From Alcanivorax sp. (GTDB lineage: Bacteria > Pseudomonadota > Gammaproteobacteria > Pseudomonadales > Alcanivoracaceae): DNA of 34,485 bases. The notes below the pieces were generated by a model that ran no database searches, was not told the origin of the DNA, and saw only the letters and a program-made list of their open reading frames with translations. The position numbers and the translations under genes were made by a program. The first letter of the stretch is position 1, and every line of letters begins with the position of its first letter. Positions 1-21,158 of this stretch are shown here, one piece after another. The stretch lies in contig JAKUPL010000003.1 of assembly GCA_022449455.1 (NCBI GenBank), positions 286,307 to 320,791 of the forward strand, written 5' to 3'.

Positions 1-367
1 CGGCGCGGAACGGACTGATGAAGGCGGTGACCACCACCAGACCGGCGTCCACCATCAGCTTGGCCACCTCGGACACCCGGCGGATGTTCTCGGTGCGGTC
101 CTCGTCGCTCATGCCCAGGTTCTTGTTCAGCCCGTGGCGCACGTTGTCGCCGTCCAGCAGATAGGTGTGCTTGCCCTGCTCGGTGAGCGCCACTTCCAGG
201 GCGTTGGCCAGGGTGGACTTGCCGGACCCGGACAGACCGGTCAGCCAGATGCATTTCGGCACCTGGGCCTTCTGCTTCGCCCGGTCGGCTTTGGTGATAT
301 TGGACTGGTGCCAGATGACTTCGGCTTTGGCGTCGTTTTCGCGTTGTTGGTAAGGGGTGTCGGTCAT
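1..367 (-). CDS. cysC: Adenylylsulfate (APS) kinase CysC, 5' part, runs off the window
   Basis: APS kinase phosphorylates adenosine 5'-phosphosulfate to PAPS in the cytoplasm. About 122 N-terminal codons are visible. They contain a Walker A P-loop, GLSGSGKS, near residues 44-51, then [12 protein letters not shown] and a DRTENIRR segment, all typical of CysC. The short leader before the P-loop, with the VIWH motif, fits a free-standing CysC rather than the C-terminal half of a CysN-CysC fusion. The ATG at 365-367 is preceded by AGGAAGG, a good ribosome binding site. The next metabolic gene is a SLC13 permease on the same strand, so a sulfate uptake and activation group is plausible. PAPS is also the donor for the sulfotransferase encoded at 28375-29478. 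The 3' part lies outside the window. Confidence 0.93.
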
Positions 368-389
368 GGTCCTTCCTGTTCGTTTCGCA

Positions 390-847
390 GTTACAAGTTG
401 AAAGTTAAAAGTTGAAAGGGAACGACCTCTCAACTATCGGTGTTCGATGCCTGCAATCAGGCTTTGGATCATGCGTGAGATTTCTTGTACCTCGCGCAAC
501 CAACGGGACGCCGTTTCGGGGTCCAAATACTCTATCTCCCTGGCGATGTATATCTGCGTTCGCAGTTCGCCCGCCGAGCCTTTTGCGTAGCTCCAGAATC
601 GAGCCCGGTCCCTAGTCGAAAGCCGCTCGTAACCCTCCGCCAGGTTACAAGGGACCGATAATCCGCTGCGGGTAATCTGATCCCTGAACCCGAAGTCCCT
701 CGACTGGGCAAAATACTTGTAGATATCCGCGCTCAATCGCGCCGACCGTTTCCATACATCCAAATCCTCGAAGCGCATCCTTGCTCTCCTCCTGTTTTCC
801 ACCGGCCACGAAGCCGCCCTTTCAACTTTTAACTTTTAACTTTCAAC
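390..847. mobile_element. 458-bp unit bounded by inverted arrays of 7-bp repeats, carrying a four-helix-bundle gene
   Basis: The left edge (390-417) is four consecutive 7-bp units of consensus GTTRAAA, the first degenerate. The right edge (820-847) is four units of the complementary form TTTYAAC. The inner 20 bases of each edge, 401-420 and 817-836, are perfect inverted repeats. The only gene between them is the four-helix-bundle ORF at 434-778. The right array supplies the last codon and stop of the SLC13 gene, as expected if the unit inserted at that 3' end. No transposase is present. Calling it mobile is inference from the structure; target-site duplications could not be identified with confidence. 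Confidence 0.6.
434..778 (-). CDS. Four-helix bundle protein, S23/IVS-encoded family
   Basis: This 114-residue protein has the family opening MRFEDLDVWKRS, followed by FGFRDQITRSGLSVPCNLAEGYER and AKGSAGELRTQIYIA, the hallmarks of the bacterial four-helix-bundle family first found in 23S rRNA intervening sequences and related to the Avd proteins of diversity-generating retroelements. The biochemical role is unknown; the fold suggests a small helical oligomer with a basic surface. I chose the ATG at 776-778 because AGGAGGA lies about 8 bases upstream and the family normally starts here. A GTG at 800-802 in frame would add 8 residues that overlap the ribosome binding site. The gene is alone inside the heptad-bounded unit 390-847. 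No rRNA, reverse transcriptase or variable repeat lies nearby, so neither classic context applies. Confidence 0.88.
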   Translation of the reverse strand: MRFEDLDVWKRSARLSADIYKYFAQSRDFGFRDQITRSGLSVPCNLAEGYERLSTRDRARFWSYAKGSAGELRTQIYIAREIEYLDPETASRWLREVQEISRMIQSLIAGIEHR

Positions 848-2624
848 TCACCCCGAACGGCCAGAAAACCGGTATCAGCGCGGTGCTGACGGCGGCGGCG
901 AGGATCGACATGGGTACGCCGATGCGCAGGTAATCCGTGAAGCGGTAGCCGCCGGGGCCCATGACCATCAGGTTGGTCTGGTAACCCAGCGGGGTCATGA
1001 AGCTGGCGCTGGCGGCGAACATGACGGCGACGATGTAGGGCATCGGCGATACGCCCAGGTGCTCGGCGACGCCGGTGGCGATGGGGAACACCAGCACCGC
1101 GGCGGCGTTGTTGGTGATCACCTCGGTGAACAGGGCGGTGATCACGTAGACCACCAGCAGCGCCAGCCAGGGGTTGTCGATGCCCTGCCCCATCAGCGCG
1201 TTGACGATAAAGGCGGCGGTGCCGCTTTCTTCCAGGGCGGTACCGAGGGCGAAGGCGGCGCCGATCACCACCAGCACCGGCAGATTGACGCTCACGTTCA
1301 TGCGCGCGCGGTTGACGGTGACGCAACGGGTGGCGAGCAGCAGCCCGGCGGCGATAAAAGCGGCTTCCAGCACCGACAGCAGGCCGATCACGTTGATCGC
1401 CACCATGCCCACCAGGATGGCGGTGGCCAGCGGCGCCTTGGAAAAGTCCGGCGGGGTGGAGTCGCTGAGCGGGCTGACCAGCATGAAATCGCGGCGGTAG
1501 CGGTATTGCTCGACGAAGGTCTGGCCGGTTTCCAGCAGCAGGGTGTCGCCGACGCGCAGGACCTGCTCGCCCACCTTGCCGGGCTGGCGGCGGCCGCCGC
1601 GGCTGATGCTGAGGATGGCGGCCTGGTAGCGGGTGCGGAAGGCGCTGTCCTTGACGCTGTGGTTGAGGCCGGGGAACTCCGGGCCGATCACCACTTCCAC
1701 CAGGCAGCGCTGGTGGTTGTTGAGCTTGAGCTTGTGGGCGCCGCCGTGGGCCGGCACCAGGCCGTTGATGCGCTGCAGCTCGCGGGCGCAGTCCGGGGCG
1801 CCGATAAAGGCGAGCTGGTCGCCGGCCAGGATCTGCATGTCCGGGCCCACCGCGGTATAGAGCTTGTCGCCGCGCTGGATTTCGGTGAGGTAGCCGTGGG
1901 TCAGGTTGCGCAGGCCGGCGTCCTGGATGGTTTTCTGGTGCAGCGGGCTGCCCTCCGGCACCACCATTTCCACATGGTATTCGCGGGCCCGCTCCACCTG
2001 CTCCACCAGGCCCGCCCGGTCAGGCAGCAGGCGGCGGCCGAGCAGCAGCAGGAATGCCGAGCCGGCCAGCAGCAGCGGTACGCCCACCCAGGCCAGGTCG
2101 AAAATGTGGAACCCCTCCAGGCCGCGGCGCTGCATCATGCCGTCCACCACCAGGTTGGTGCTGGTGCCGATCAGGGTGCAGGTACCGCCGAGGATGGCCG
2201 CGTAGCTGAGCGGCAGCAGCAGTTGCGAGGCGGACAGTTTGAGACGCTGGGCCCACTCCTGCACCGCCGGGATCATCATCGCCACCACGGTGGTGTTGTT
2301 GAGAAAGGCGCTGAGCAACGCGGTGGGGGCGATCAGCCGGGTCTGGCTGCCGGTCAGGGTTTTCGGCTGGCCCAGCAGCTTGTGGGCGATCCAGTAAATG
2401 GCGCCGGTGTCGCGCAGGGCGGCGGCCACCACATAGAGCACCGCCACCGTCATCAGGCCCGGGTTGGCGAAGCCGGCCAGGGCCTGGTCCGGGCTGATCA
2501 CGCCGCCCACCAGCACCGCCACCAGGGCCGCCATCATGGTGACCTCGGCGGGCACCCGGTTGCTGGCCAGGGCGCCGAGCACGGCGGCCACGACCAGCGA
2601 GGTGAACAAAATATCCGGCGTCAT
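843..2624 (-). CDS. SLC13-family permease with two TrkA-C-like domains, probable sulfate transporter
   Basis: This 593-residue inner-membrane protein has an N-terminal membrane half (about 1-205), a soluble insert (about 210-390) with two RCK_C/TrkA-C-like domains, and a C-terminal membrane half (about 405-593). Family signatures are FLNNTTVVAMMIP and GGTCTLIGTSTNLVV in the first half and TEVITNNAAAVLVFP with PLGYQTNLMV in the second, the paired helical-hairpin NTT/NT motifs of DASS transporters. Members with this insert often carry sulfate, and the cysC neighbour supports that, but dicarboxylate or another anion cannot be excluded. The ATG at 2622-2624 has only a weak upstream GGAG. The serine codon and TGA stop (843-848) lie within a heptad repeat array, so the C-terminus has probably been altered by that insertion. 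Confidence 0.9.
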   Translation of the reverse strand: MTPDILFTSLVVAAVLGALASNRVPAEVTMMAALVAVLVGGVISPDQALAGFANPGLMTVAVLYVVAAALRDTGAIYWIAHKLLGQPKTLTGSQTRLIAPTALLSAFLNNTTVVAMMIPAVQEWAQRLKLSASQLLLPLSYAAILGGTCTLIGTSTNLVVDGMMQRRGLEGFHIFDLAWVGVPLLLAGSAFLLLLGRRLLPDRAGLVEQVERAREYHVEMVVPEGSPLHQKTIQDAGLRNLTHGYLTEIQRGDKLYTAVGPDMQILAGDQLAFIGAPDCARELQRINGLVPAHGGAHKLKLNNHQRCLVEVVIGPEFPGLNHSVKDSAFRTRYQAAILSISRGGRRQPGKVGEQVLRVGDTLLLETGQTFVEQYRYRRDFMLVSPLSDSTPPDFSKAPLATAILVGMVAINVIGLLSVLEAAFIAAGLLLATRCVTVNRARMNVSVNLPVLVVIGAAFALGTALEESGTAAFIVNALMGQGIDNPWLALLVVYVITALFTEVITNNAAAVLVFPIATGVAEHLGVSPMPYIVAVMFAASASFMTPLGYQTNLMVMGPGGYRFTDYLRIGVPMSILAAAVSTALIPVFWPFGVS

Positions 2625-2767
2625 CGTCGGCCAAGGCTCCAGCGGTCTGGTGGTCCGGGGAATGGGCTGGATGGTAGCCGGTTTTTTATAACCTGCAACC
2701 GACGATTCGTTCTTTGCTTATTACGTAGAGGGCATCCTGAGGCGACCGCCCGGTCACACAAACTATC

Positions 2768-2796
2768 TTGACAGCCTCACGGCTCCGAGATAACAC
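2768..2796 (+). promoter_or_regulatory. Candidate sigma-70 promoter of the catabolic operon
   Basis: A perfect TTGACA at 2768-2773 is followed by 17 bases and TAACAC at 2791-2796, a moderate -10. It lies 67 bases before the first gene of the operon, just upstream of the palindromic operator. The -10 match is only 3 of 6, so the exact register is uncertain. Confidence 0.5.
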
Positions 2797-2809
2797 TTCC
2801 ATCATTACG

Positions 2810-2827
2810 TACGAACATTCGTTCGTA
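2810..2827. promoter_or_regulatory. Palindromic operator, probable TetR-family site
   Basis: Two perfect 7-bp arms, TACGAAC at 2810-2816 and GTTCGTA at 2821-2827, are separated by 4 bases. The size and composition are typical of TetR-family operators. It lies 14 bases downstream of the proposed -10 and 36 bases before the first start codon, so a bound repressor would block initiation. The only TetR gene in the window, at 11385-12104, is the last gene of this operon, which makes it the natural candidate for binding. That pairing is inference. Confidence 0.6.
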
Positions 2828-2862
2828 GAGAAATAAATCAAACAAAGTTACGGGAGAGCACC

Positions 2863-5013
2863 ATGCAAGTGTTGATCGTCGGGGCCGGTATCGCCGGCCT
2901 GACTGCCGCCATCGCCTTACGCCATAAAGGCATTGACGCCACCATCGTCGAGCAGGCCCCCAAGCTCACCGAGATCGGCGCCGGCATCCAAATCGCCGCC
3001 AACGGCTCGGTGGTATTGCGTGAGCTGGGCCTTGAGCAGGCCGTGGCCGCCAAGTCGGTGATTCCCCAGTCTTTCGACATGCGCGACATCCTCACTGGCA
3101 AGCAGCTTTGGGACGTACCGCTGGGTGATGCCGGGGCACACCGCTGGGGGGCGCCGCTGTATAACATCCATCGCGCCGATCTGATCGGGCTCCTGGCCGA
3201 TCGCCTGCCACCGGACAGTTTGCGGCTGGGTCAGCGTTGCAGCGCCCTGGAGCAGGATGGAACCGGCGTCACCTTGCATTTGGATAATGGCGAAACATTG
3301 CGCGGCGACGTGTTGATCGGTGCCGACGGCATCCATTCGGTGGTTCGCCAGCGGTTGTTCGGCGAGGACAATGACGACGTGCAATTCTCGAACATCTTGA
3401 TGTGGCGGGCGCTGATCCCCGCGGATCGCTTGAAGCACGTGGACCTTCCGGAGCGGGGCAACTACTGGTTCGGGCCCGGCCGTACGCTGATTACCTATTG
3501 GATTCGCCCACAGAATCTTTACAGCATTCTGGCGTCGGTACCATCCGGCGAGGTGCGGCGGGAATCCTGGACCGAAAGCGGCGACATCGATGAATTGCGG
3601 GCCTCGTTTTCCGGGCTGGAACCGCGTGCCCAGGCGATGATGGACGAAATCGACAGCGCCTTTATCACCGGCATGTTCTACCGCGACCCGATCGAACGCT
3701 GGACCGATGGGCGGGTCAGCCTGATGGGTGACGCGGCACACCCGATGGTGCCGTTTCTTGCCCAGGGCGCCTGCCAGGGCATGGAGGACGCCTGGGTGTT
3801 GGCCACCATGCTGGAGCGCCATCATGCCGACCCGGCGGCCGGTCTCGCGGAGTACGAACAGCGCCGACGGCCACGGACCACCCGGGTGCAGTCCGGCGCC
3901 CGCGCCATGGTGAAGATGGTGCATGAATCGGATCCCGAGCGAATCAAATCCCGCAACGGGCGCTGGAAAGGCATGCAGCATATCGATCCGTTGTCGGAGG
4001 CTACCTGGTCCTTTGTTTGGGAGTACGACGTACTCAAGGAAGTGAACCGCCCCGCCGGCGAGGTTCTGGGTCTGTCCGCCACCCGCGAGGCGAAGACCAT
4101 GGATCGCCCGGAAAGCCAGCGCGCCTTCGAAATGTGGAAGTCAGCGTTTACCCCGGAAGACGTGGCGCGCGGTCATGATGGCATGCGTGAAGGGTATGAG
4201 CGCTTCTTGACCACCCATTTTCCGTTGCGCGAGCCGGGCACGGTGGAAGAGGTCGAGTTGGGGGGCGTGCCAGCGTTCCGGGTCGGCAAGGCCGGCACCG
4301 AAAGCCCCTTGGTCCTGCATTTTCATGGTGGCGGTTACATGCTCGGCTCCGCCCGGAGCTCGCTCGAATACGCATCGCGCCTGGCCACCGCCGTGGGCGG
4401 CGAATGCGTGACCGTGGACTACCGGCTGGCGCCGGAAGCCCCCTACCCCGCGGCGCTTGACGATGCGGTGGACGCTTACCGGGGTCTGCTGCGCGCCGGC
4501 GTGGCACCGTCACGTATTTTGTTGAGCGGCGAGTCGTCCGGCGGCGGCCTGGCGCTGGCCCTGAGTCTGGCCTTGAAGATGGCCGGCGATCCGCTGCCAG
4601 CCGGCATCGTGGCGATCTGTCCGTTCACCGATCTGACCTTGTCCGGCGCCAGCATCAAGGACTTCGCCGGCGAGGACCCCGCCGCCCACCGCGATACCCT
4701 GGCCCTGATGGCGGCCTCCTATTTTCAGGGACATGAACCCCGTGATCCGCTGGTTTCCCCGCTGTTCGGAGACCTGAAAGGGTTGCCCCCCCTACTTCTT
4801 TCGTCGGTGGAAGGCGAATCGCTGTACAGCGACAGCACCCGCCTGCGGGAGCGCGCCCTGGCGGCGGATGTGGATGTAACCTTCCTGCCTGTACGCGATT
4901 CAGTACACGTCTACACCTTGTTCCCCTTCCTGCCGGAAACCGAAGCCACTCTCAAAACCTTGGGCGAGTGGGCCACCCGTGTAGTGGGCGAACCAACCCG
5001 CGCCACCGCCTGA
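2863..5013 (+). CDS. Fused FAD-dependent monooxygenase / alpha-beta hydrolase
   Basis: The protein has 716 residues in one uninterrupted frame. Residues 1 to about 395 form a group A flavin hydroxylase like salicylate or 6-hydroxynicotinate hydroxylases: GAGIAG at 7-12, the DG motif GADGIHS at 153-159 and the GD motif GDAAHP at 289-294, followed by AQGACQGMEDA. Residues about 430-716 form a hormone-sensitive-lipase-type hydrolase: oxyanion motif HGGG at 488-491, DYRLAPE at 519-525, nucleophile elbow GESSG with Ser558, and His682. The catalytic acid is less clear; Glu652 in GESLYSD is the best candidate. No signal peptide is seen, so it should be cytoplasmic. It could hydroxylate an aromatic acid and hydrolyse an ester or product, but the substrate is unknown. 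GGGAG precedes the ATG. It heads the transporter-ligase operon. Confidence 0.88.
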   Translation: MQVLIVGAGIAGLTAAIALRHKGIDATIVEQAPKLTEIGAGIQIAANGSVVLRELGLEQAVAAKSVIPQSFDMRDILTGKQLWDVPLGDAGAHRWGAPLYNIHRADLIGLLADRLPPDSLRLGQRCSALEQDGTGVTLHLDNGETLRGDVLIGADGIHSVVRQRLFGEDNDDVQFSNILMWRALIPADRLKHVDLPERGNYWFGPGRTLITYWIRPQNLYSILASVPSGEVRRESWTESGDIDELRASFSGLEPRAQAMMDEIDSAFITGMFYRDPIERWTDGRVSLMGDAAHPMVPFLAQGACQGMEDAWVLATMLERHHADPAAGLAEYEQRRRPRTTRVQSGARAMVKMVHESDPERIKSRNGRWKGMQHIDPLSEATWSFVWEYDVLKEVNRPAGEVLGLSATREAKTMDRPESQRAFEMWKSAFTPEDVARGHDGMREGYERFLTTHFPLREPGTVEEVELGGVPAFRVGKAGTESPLVLHFHGGGYMLGSARSSLEYASRLATAVGGECVTVDYRLAPEAPYPAALDDAVDAYRGLLRAGVAPSRILLSGESSGGGLALALSLALKMAGDPLPAGIVAICPFTDLTLSGASIKDFAGEDPAAHRDTLALMAASYFQGHEPRDPLVSPLFGDLKGLPPLLLSSVEGESLYSDSTRLRERALAADVDVTFLPVRDSVHVYTLFPFLPETEATLKTLGEWATRVVGEPTRATA

Positions 5014-13333: not shown

Positions 13334-13343
13334 CGGCAAGGAC

Positions 13344-13508
13344 GATACAGGATGCAGGATTCAGGATGCAGCGCGGCGCCAGGCCAGGAGACCCGGTTGG
13401 CGCGCACTACGCGTCCTTGCGTATCGGCAGCAAAAGTCATGCTAATACGCAGGGCTGTCCACCCACGCCAACGCTCACCCCTGTATCCTGCAGCCTGCAT
13501 CCTGTATC
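13344..13508. repeat. 165-bp non-coding element with inverted arrays of 7-bp units (element A)
   Basis: The left edge (13344-13371) is four 7-bp units of consensus GATNCAG. The right edge (13481-13508) is four units of the complementary CTGNATC form, one degenerate. The interior holds two nested inverted repeats: GTTGGCG (13396-13402) with CGCCAAC (13466-13472), and TGCGTAT (13418-13424) with ATACGCA (13445-13451), so the single strand could form a long interrupted stem. No convincing ORF is inside. Elements at 16819-16915 and 32783-32926 share the edge repeats. Confidence 0.8.
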
Positions 13509-13524
13509 CGCGGCCACCGGCCGC

Positions 13525-16808: not shown

Positions 16809-16818
16809 GACAAAAGAC

Positions 16819-16915
16819 GATGCAGGGTACAGGATTCAGGATTCAGGGGAGGGCGTGGCGCCATGTTGCTGGCCGCTGCCGTCGCCCCTGAATCCTGCAT
16901 CCTGCATCCTGTACC
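16819..16915. repeat. 97-bp non-coding element with inverted arrays of 7-bp units (element B)
   Basis: Four 7-bp units of consensus GATNCAG at 16819-16846 face four complementary units at 16888-16915. The edges continue inward as CAGGGG versus CCCCTG. It fills the space between the convergent 3' ends of the copper-storage-like gene and uvrB, where it may also act as a bidirectional terminator. It is the shortest of the three elements of this family. Confidence 0.8.
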
Positions 16916-16941
16916 GGGCGGCGAATGCCGCCCTTGTCCTT

Positions 16942-20690: not shown

Positions 20691-21158
20691 ATGATATCCC
20701 CTTTCCCTACCGCCCCCGGCGGGCACCGTCTTCGTATCGGCCGGTATTCCGAACCGGGCCGGGCTTATCTGGTGACCACGGTGACCCGGGATCGGCGGGC
20801 CCGGTTTCTTGAAATGTCCGCCTCTCTCGCCACCATCCGCTGTCTGCGCACCATGGACGCACAGCGGGTCAGCCGGACCCTGTGTTATGTACTGATGCCG
20901 GACCACTTGCACTGGCTGATGGTGCTGGGCAGCGGCGCGTCATTGCCGGAAGTGGTACGGCGTTTTAAAAGCTACAGCGGCCGCCAGCTTGGTGGGTCCG
21001 TCTGGCAGCGGGGCTTCCATGACCGGGCGCTGCGCCGCGAGGCGGACCTGCTGCCGGCGGCGCGTTATGTGGTCGCCAATCCGTTGCGTGCGGGGCTGGT
21101 GCGGCGTCTGGGTGATTATCCGTATTGGGACGCGGTGTGGTTGGAGGGTGGCGGGTGA
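20691..21158 (+). CDS. REP-associated tyrosine transposase (RAYT)
   Basis: The 155-residue protein belongs to the IS200/IS605-related Y1 transposase group that is domesticated to spread REP sequences. Diagnostic parts are RIGRYSEPGRAYLVTTVT, the HUH metal motif in MPDHLHWLMVL and the C-terminal WQRGFHDRALR with ARYVVANPLRAGLV, which holds the probable catalytic Tyr. It cleaves and rejoins single-stranded REP hairpins. I start at the ATG at 20691, just before the conserved region; an ATG at 20625 would add 22 residues with no recognisable similarity, and neither has a strong ribosome binding site. The gene lies between inverted BIMEs, and its TGA stop merges into the downstream REP. All catalytic parts look intact. 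Confidence 0.92.
   Translation: MISPFPTAPGGHRLRIGRYSEPGRAYLVTTVTRDRRARFLEMSASLATIRCLRTMDAQRVSRTLCYVLMPDHLHWLMVLGSGASLPEVVRRFKSYSGRQLGGSVWQRGFHDRALRREADLLPAARYVVANPLRAGLVRRLGDYPYWDAVWLEGGG

Follow-up and report, generated by a model that had tools for sequence, protein, structure and literature searches.

Four-helix-bundle genes boxed by matched seven-base repeats in bacterial operons look like a little-noticed mobile element related to rRNA intervening sequences

The closest described system to the locus presented here is the intervening sequence (IVS) in the 23S rRNA of Coxiella burnetii, which is 428-444 nt long, carries an S23 open reading frame in sense and is closed by a 28-bp terminal stem (PMC4990558). 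According to the same paper, the number of GACAGAT heptamers in the Coxiella IVS differs from strain to strain, and the IVS is excised by RNase III in vitro. The structure 2gsc is described there as a toroidal homopentamer of four-helix bundles, and how IVSs in 23S rRNA arose and move is still called unclear more than 25 years on. Dispersed heptamers have been reported as well, namely TAACTGA in Beggiatoaceae, cyanobacteria and Bacteroidetes (PMC4679880) and GGGGAYT/GGGAATC in Nostoc/Xanthomonas (PMC4692102); the main text of PMC4679880 makes no mention of 'S23' or 'four helix'. Two further systems invite comparison. REPIN/RAYT elements and bacterial MITEs are short, inverted, dispersed and probably non-autonomous, and Avd, the accessory protein of diversity-generating retroelements (DGRs), is similar in sequence and structure to the family studied here (PMC10053308). 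In the openly licensed PMC literature we found no paper tying PF05635 genes in general to heptad arms.

We analysed a stretch of 34,485 nt from an Alcanivorax genome, hereafter the window, in which a PF05635 gene lies between two inverted heptad arrays. This gene, its arms and its neighbours are as follows.

2..367, minus strand: cysC (APS kinase, by Pfam), the downstream neighbour, open at the window edge, with its ATG at 365-367 read from the sequence
389..420, plus strand: left inverted heptad array, the 3' arm relative to the gene's direction (sequence and inverted-repeat search)
434..778, minus strand: PF05635 (S23/23S rRNA-IVP, four-helix-bundle) gene, ATG start, 114 codons (open reading frame list and Pfam)
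788..793, minus strand: Shine-Dalgarno AGGAGG, 9 nt before the ATG (sequence)
817..848, plus strand: right inverted heptad array, the 5' arm relative to the gene's direction, with the SLC13 stop codon within it (sequence and inverted-repeat search)
843..2624, minus strand: SLC13-like transporter gene (CitMHS, TrkA_C, Na_sulph_symp), the upstream neighbour (open reading frame list and Pfam)

The unit is 460 nt long. It holds a single gene with a strong ribosome binding site, as the original prediction had it. The open reading frame list starts this gene at a GTG at 802, the longest frame, and the ATG lies at 778. The Pfam match to PF05635 has an E-value of 1.9e-32, and by sequence the nearest solved structure to the protein is 2gsc (E 5e-14). 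The two arms are 32 nt each, 91% complementary and spaced 396 nt apart, and they contain, as claimed, a perfect 20-bp inverted core (401-420 and 817-836, read from the sequence). The statement that both edges are made of four GTTRAAA heptamers held for the right arm, where 4 of 4 match in complement, and for three of the copies in the left arm (GTTACAA, GTTGAAA, GTTAAAA, GTTGAAA), in which the outermost copy, GTTACAA, does not fit. The unit had further been said to end at the 3' end of the SLC13 gene, and indeed the stop codon (843-845) falls within the right arm. The inverted-match score of the arms is 24.5, against 12.5 for the best of 1000 Markov shuffles; a chance origin of the repeats was rejected on these shuffles and on the control stretches at other loci given below.

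When the unit is folded as RNA, the predicted structure pairs the two arms (z -4.5). cysC, the PF05635 gene and the SLC13-like gene are all on the same strand. A promoter scan of 340-1100, covering the unit and its surroundings, found no sigma-70 promoter, and from this we infer a common SLC13-cysC transcript. Two terminator-like sites lie in the same interval. One of them, 435-410, is in the 3' arm of the gene, so that this arm is also able to form a terminator-like hairpin, which counts against reading the unit as an IVS-type cassette.

The likeness to the Coxiella IVS (PMC4990558) comprises an S23 family protein, a similar length, an open reading frame in sense (here on the same strand as both neighbours, with the common transcript inferred), terminal inverted repeats of about 28 bp able to form a long stem, and tandem heptamers. 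The window unit differs in being located between two protein genes, in its strong Shine-Dalgarno sequence and in the many gene-less heptad hairpins of its genome. Its position between the SLC13 and cysC genes is outside 23S rRNA, and positions 1-3000 of the window gave no Rfam match. Two other PF05635 units do lie within LSU rRNA, one on the Azospirillum plasmid AZO_p2 (L155), where a period of 7 was called on either side of the gene, and one in genome G271 (L173), with a downstream call and upstream heptads seen by eye only. The original prediction had set rRNA intervening sequences aside as beside the point. These heptad-armed relatives within 23S rRNA, and the heptamers and 28-bp stem of the published 23S IVS, do not support that view.

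We then asked how common such arms are in the PF05635 family. The first sample, from a scan of named genomes, consisted of the best 80 of 576 relatives by closeness to the window protein; these 80 include Gammaproteobacteria, Planctomycetes, Chlorobi and Campylobacterales. Seventy-four loci with at least 180 nt on both sides were kept and 6 with short flanks were dropped, and 64 stretches 800-1000 nt away served as controls. A period of 7 was called upstream in 34/74 loci and downstream in 41/74, against 2/64 and 2/64 controls; it was present on both sides in 25/74 and on at least one side in 50/74. Other periods (4-6 and 8-13) gave 0-3 calls, and 14 is a harmonic. The upstream and downstream flanks were complementary (score of at least 14) at 49/74 loci, compared with 0/64 controls and 1/74 shuffled pairs, and 66% of matched pairs reached this threshold versus 3.7% of pairs made across loci. 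Moreover, a flank's own partner was the best of the 74 for 35 loci and among the top three for 59/74. The heptamer sequence varies from locus to locus, and usually one heptamer serves both arms of a unit. An AG dinucleotide keeps a constant phase (the same phase in at least three of four heptads) in 32/34 upstream and 35/41 downstream arrays, a constancy that no other dinucleotide shows as often.

A second, less selected sample was drawn from a phylum search and comprised 50 places, 30 with loci and 20 hand-picked, of which 49 were usable. Here period 7 was called upstream in 20 loci, downstream in 28, on both sides in 14 and on either side in 34, and 27 had complementary flanks; among 30 controls the corresponding counts were 0 upstream, 1 downstream and 0 complementary. 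Thus many PF05635 genes elsewhere do carry edge arrays, the outcome for which the original prediction had proposed to look. Counting against generality, 25/74 loci of the first sample fall below the complementarity threshold and 24/74, including Shewanella and Amphritea loci, have no period-7 call on either side; in the second sample the figures are 22/49 and 15/49. About a third of loci are therefore without arms at the thresholds used. For a distant paralogue located elsewhere in six genomes, the 700 nt around the gene gave no period-7 call in 3/6 and a call on one side only in the other 3. At one locus (L133, in G383), an 8-bp repeat replaces the heptad beside the PF05635 gene, with a score of 21 of 21 upstream and 18 downstream.

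The host sites include nuoC-nuoD and biotin carboxyl carrier-biotin carboxylase in addition to SLC13-cysC, the identities of cysC, nuoC, nuoD and the two biotin genes being assigned by Pfam. The upstream neighbour is co-directional with the PF05635 gene in 57/64 cases (p 8e-11) and both neighbours are in 45/61, counts that derive from 67 loci examined with open reading frames called by a simple longest-first rule. Twenty-four plasmid records have a PF05635 match. Among nine plasmid loci examined, eight have period 7 on both sides and the ninth (L153) downstream only. On plasmids of Anabaena and Pseudanabaena (L152, L154), heptad-flanked PF05635 genes lie between cas6 and cas4 of CRISPR operons, and their array sequences differ. 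A tblastn search of 50,697 phage records gave no match.

We next considered whether the unit moves. At the SLC13-cysC junction of 13 genomes of the genus, a unit is present in 6, the junction is rearranged in four (G005-G008) and it is empty in G002, G009 and G012, so the empty sites that had been anticipated do exist. One of them, G002, has an SLC13 segment 98% identical to that of the window's genome and is its sister in the SLC13 tree. In a second genus, six genomes carry a unit at the same junction. With 12 genomes of two genera occupied, the site is old, although its occupants are not all old, and this long occupation qualifies the reading first given to the unit. Between G029 and G024 the genes are 97.0% identical and the arms alike, whereas the adjoining SLC13 segments are 78.1% identical. 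In this pair the left array marks the change in identity, and on the other side the gene's close similarity extends into the first part of cysC; homologous recombination could therefore have carried the mosaic. All 9 matches to the AGCTAC-heptad in G029 are at the unit, against 340 matches in G024, and it is therefore probable that arms and gene arrived together in G029.

The opposite pattern is found between the window's genome (G000) and G011, whose SLC13 segments are 90.8% identical, with genes at 64.5% and differing heptamers. Likewise at nuoC-nuoD, identity between G098 and G305 is 93.5 and 93.9% in the flanks against 63.2% in the gene, and the heptamers differ. Arms and gene have thus been exchanged together at two sites. 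Other comparisons are in step: G004 and G010 share 96.6% in the gene and 96.6% in the flank; G106 and G176, assigned as nuoC-nuoD sites by flank similarity, have flanks at 91.7 and 90.8%, genes at 89.1% and like heptamers; and a third site in four genomes looks vertical, with genes at 81.6-94.0% and flanks at 84.6-92.9%. Overall, the pairwise identities at the three sites are a poor fit to vertical descent at one rate. The presence of the unit on the SLC13 tree of the 13 genomes needs 4 changes, about the same as with shuffled labels, and in a tree of the genes at this junction branches are long and few forks are well supported; the case for exchange consequently rests on the pairwise identities. 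The original prediction is supported in part: the empty junctions, the replacement of gene and heptamer at fixed sites and the one genome whose unit heptamer is found solely at its unit speak for a compact cassette that contains no transposase and is gained, lost or exchanged as a whole. Judged by these comparisons of sequences, the unit behaves as a mobile cassette.

The reading first given also needs the qualification that, in this genus, heptad arrays occur away from the unit. The window's genome has 233 overlapping three-heptad matches (at most one mismatch), against 13 for a reversed control pattern. In 30/40 stretches fetched around listed matches, two arrays face each other 21-138 bp apart, a spacing too small for a PF05635 gene. 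Two further gene-less elements, of another heptamer, lie in the window.

13340..13510, no strand assigned: gene-less inverted heptad element, heptamer CAGGATN, arms 13340-13375 and 13479-13510 (sequence)
16817..16919, no strand assigned: another gene-less inverted element of CAGGATN heptads, arms 16817-16850 and 16882-16919 (sequence)

At least three gene-less elements (L069, L073 and L180:8485-8598) have GCCGCCCTT beside the right array, as in the unit, judged by eye. Among 33 relatives, three-heptamer arrays are found in 7/7 genomes with a close unit gene versus 3/26 without one, these three being G002, G009 and G012 (Fisher 3e-5, uncorrected for the relatedness of the genomes). The three heptamers tested have 73, 1 and 39 matches in the window's genome, and in G004, G010 and G011 the unit's own heptamer is outnumbered, among dispersed copies, by another of the three; these counts contradict the idea of a single heptamer per genome matching its unit. 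Ten other genomes with PF05635, sampled over 400 kb, had 3 arrays, consisting of one inverted pair that is a unit itself and one lone array, and 400 kb from 7 genomes with no PF05635 match held 1 array and no pair. The 10 genomes thus contradict dispersed arrays as a general genome-wide companion of PF05635, and since such arrays are nearly absent there, they look like a lineage-specific expansion.

The turnover seen for units has a gene-less counterpart, and array length changes by whole heptads too. One site directly after a stop codon and before a Shine-Dalgarno sequence (L180:17330-17432) holds a CAGGATN element in the window's genome and one of AAGCNNC heptads in G003, and is unoccupied in G002. 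A target-site duplication, as a DDE insertion sequence or MITE would leave, was not seen where a gene-less element could be compared with its one clean empty site; at the unit's own junction the sequences are too diverged for such a comparison. Two very long near-pure heptad arrays (G003:C18:49412-49612 and G031:C3:204960-205287) suggest slippage expansion of single arrays. The same heptad arrays with the same spacing are found on two contigs of the window's genome (L061 on C4, L062 on C12), and this stretch may be duplicated. The dispersed heptamers of PMC4679880 and PMC4692102 are, as set out in those papers, also runs of related 7-mers, mostly intergenic, with their role or mechanism left open. 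Some unit arms in the genomes compared here are of like form (CAGTTRT in L252, GGGGAGT in L156). Unlike the arms described here, the published heptamers are reported chiefly as direct repeats.

The explanation that we favour, and hold to be probable though far from certain, is that the window unit is an IVS-type selfish cassette housed in an mRNA operon rather than in 23S rRNA, with a paired-arm stem in RNA and exchange as one block in DNA. The unit would ride in sense on the SLC13-cysC transcript. In the RNA, its heptad arms would pair into one long stem closing the S23-type open reading frame, and by analogy with the 23S IVSs this stem may be cut by RNase III while the host genes still work. 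At the DNA level, gene and arms would be gained, lost and exchanged as a block, with exchange seen at the two sites above, at a few tolerated positions between a stop codon and the ribosome binding site of the next gene. Each unit would usually have one heptamer, differing between units and mostly with AG at a fixed phase, and the scattered gene-less hairpins would most simply be non-autonomous derivatives. Candidates for mobilisation in DNA are the protein itself, host recombination at the arrays, or an enzyme acting in trans; it is an attractive idea that a ring-shaped protein might read AG every seven nucleotides.

Alternatively, the cassette may work at the DNA level only, the heptad arrays being sites that the S23-type protein binds or that anneal in host recombination, through which DNA is excised and inserted, and the RNA stem being incidental. 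We consider this rather unlikely, although it accommodates several results: the joint exchange of gene and heptamer, a left-hand breakpoint that coincides with the array in the single aligned pair (G029-G024), the numerous gene-less inverted elements and the association of arrays with genomes that have a close unit gene. However, the strong sense orientation is unexpected for a DNA-only element, and we know of no nuclease or recombinase activity for PF05635. If the arrays were instead REP-type repeats moved by a Y1 transposase, with the PF05635 gene as a passenger, the many dispersed palindromic repeats and the Y1_Tnp genes of the window's genome would find an explanation. This seems improbable to us, because Y1_Tnp (any match counted) is present in 13/13 genomes of the genus, including G005-G008, in which no array of the three types was found, and because arrays accompany PF05635 genes in many phyla. 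Arms that belong to an ordinary REP/RAYT family were rejected on the ground that Y1_Tnp presence does not track the arrays; in contrast to REPIN/RAYT elements and MITEs, the arms are here heptad arrays that differ between lineages. A weak Y1_Tnp-like match, below the family cut-off, is located at about 20778-20990 of the window (G000:C23:307084-307296).

The resemblance of PF05635 to Avd (PMC10053308) raises the question of a protein working with a reverse transcriptase in trans. Such a partnership is very improbable, for the contig of the window has no RVT_1 match, the sole one of its genome being on another contig (C56), and G001, G003 and G004, which carry units and arrays and are 99-100% complete, have none. 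These three genomes make a reverse transcriptase unlikely as a requirement. As Y1_Tnp is found in all 13 genomes irrespective of arrays, and a reverse transcriptase was matched in none of the three, neither enzyme readily explains the DNA step. What we regard as least probable is that a small gene of the ordinary kind, evolving fast and passed on vertically, happens to lie in an intergenic region rich in repeats, its arms being at most a terminator or attenuator. The occupation of the same junction in two genera, pairs in step with their flanks such as G004-G010, and the terminator-like hairpin would all agree with it. Nonetheless, one rate is hard to reconcile with a gene far more alike than its flank in G029-G024 and far less alike in G098-G305, and the matched arms of the first sample and the G029 heptamer found solely at the unit also oppose such descent.

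To return to the IVS-type cassette, similar boxed genes in operons of very different bacteria look like a mobile element that is widespread, has drawn little notice and is akin to rRNA intervening sequences. One may go further, to a proposal that is possible but on balance doubtful: PF05635 units would constitute a widespread unrecognised class of mobile elements, in which a ring-forming four-helix-bundle protein would move a cassette bounded by inverted arms in a 7-bp code of its own, constant in AG and free elsewhere. The cassette would home to places in operons where a stop codon meets a Shine-Dalgarno sequence. The 23S IVSs would then be one habitat of this class, and the orphan heptamers of cyanobacteria, Xanthomonas and Beggiatoaceae its gene-less footprints. 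The finding joins three matters, namely how the 23S IVSs arose and move, what the many genes annotated 'four helix bundle protein' do, and why dispersed heptamers occur in several phyla. All three become testable through a single model, that of a cassette with the same private 7-bp repeat in both arms.
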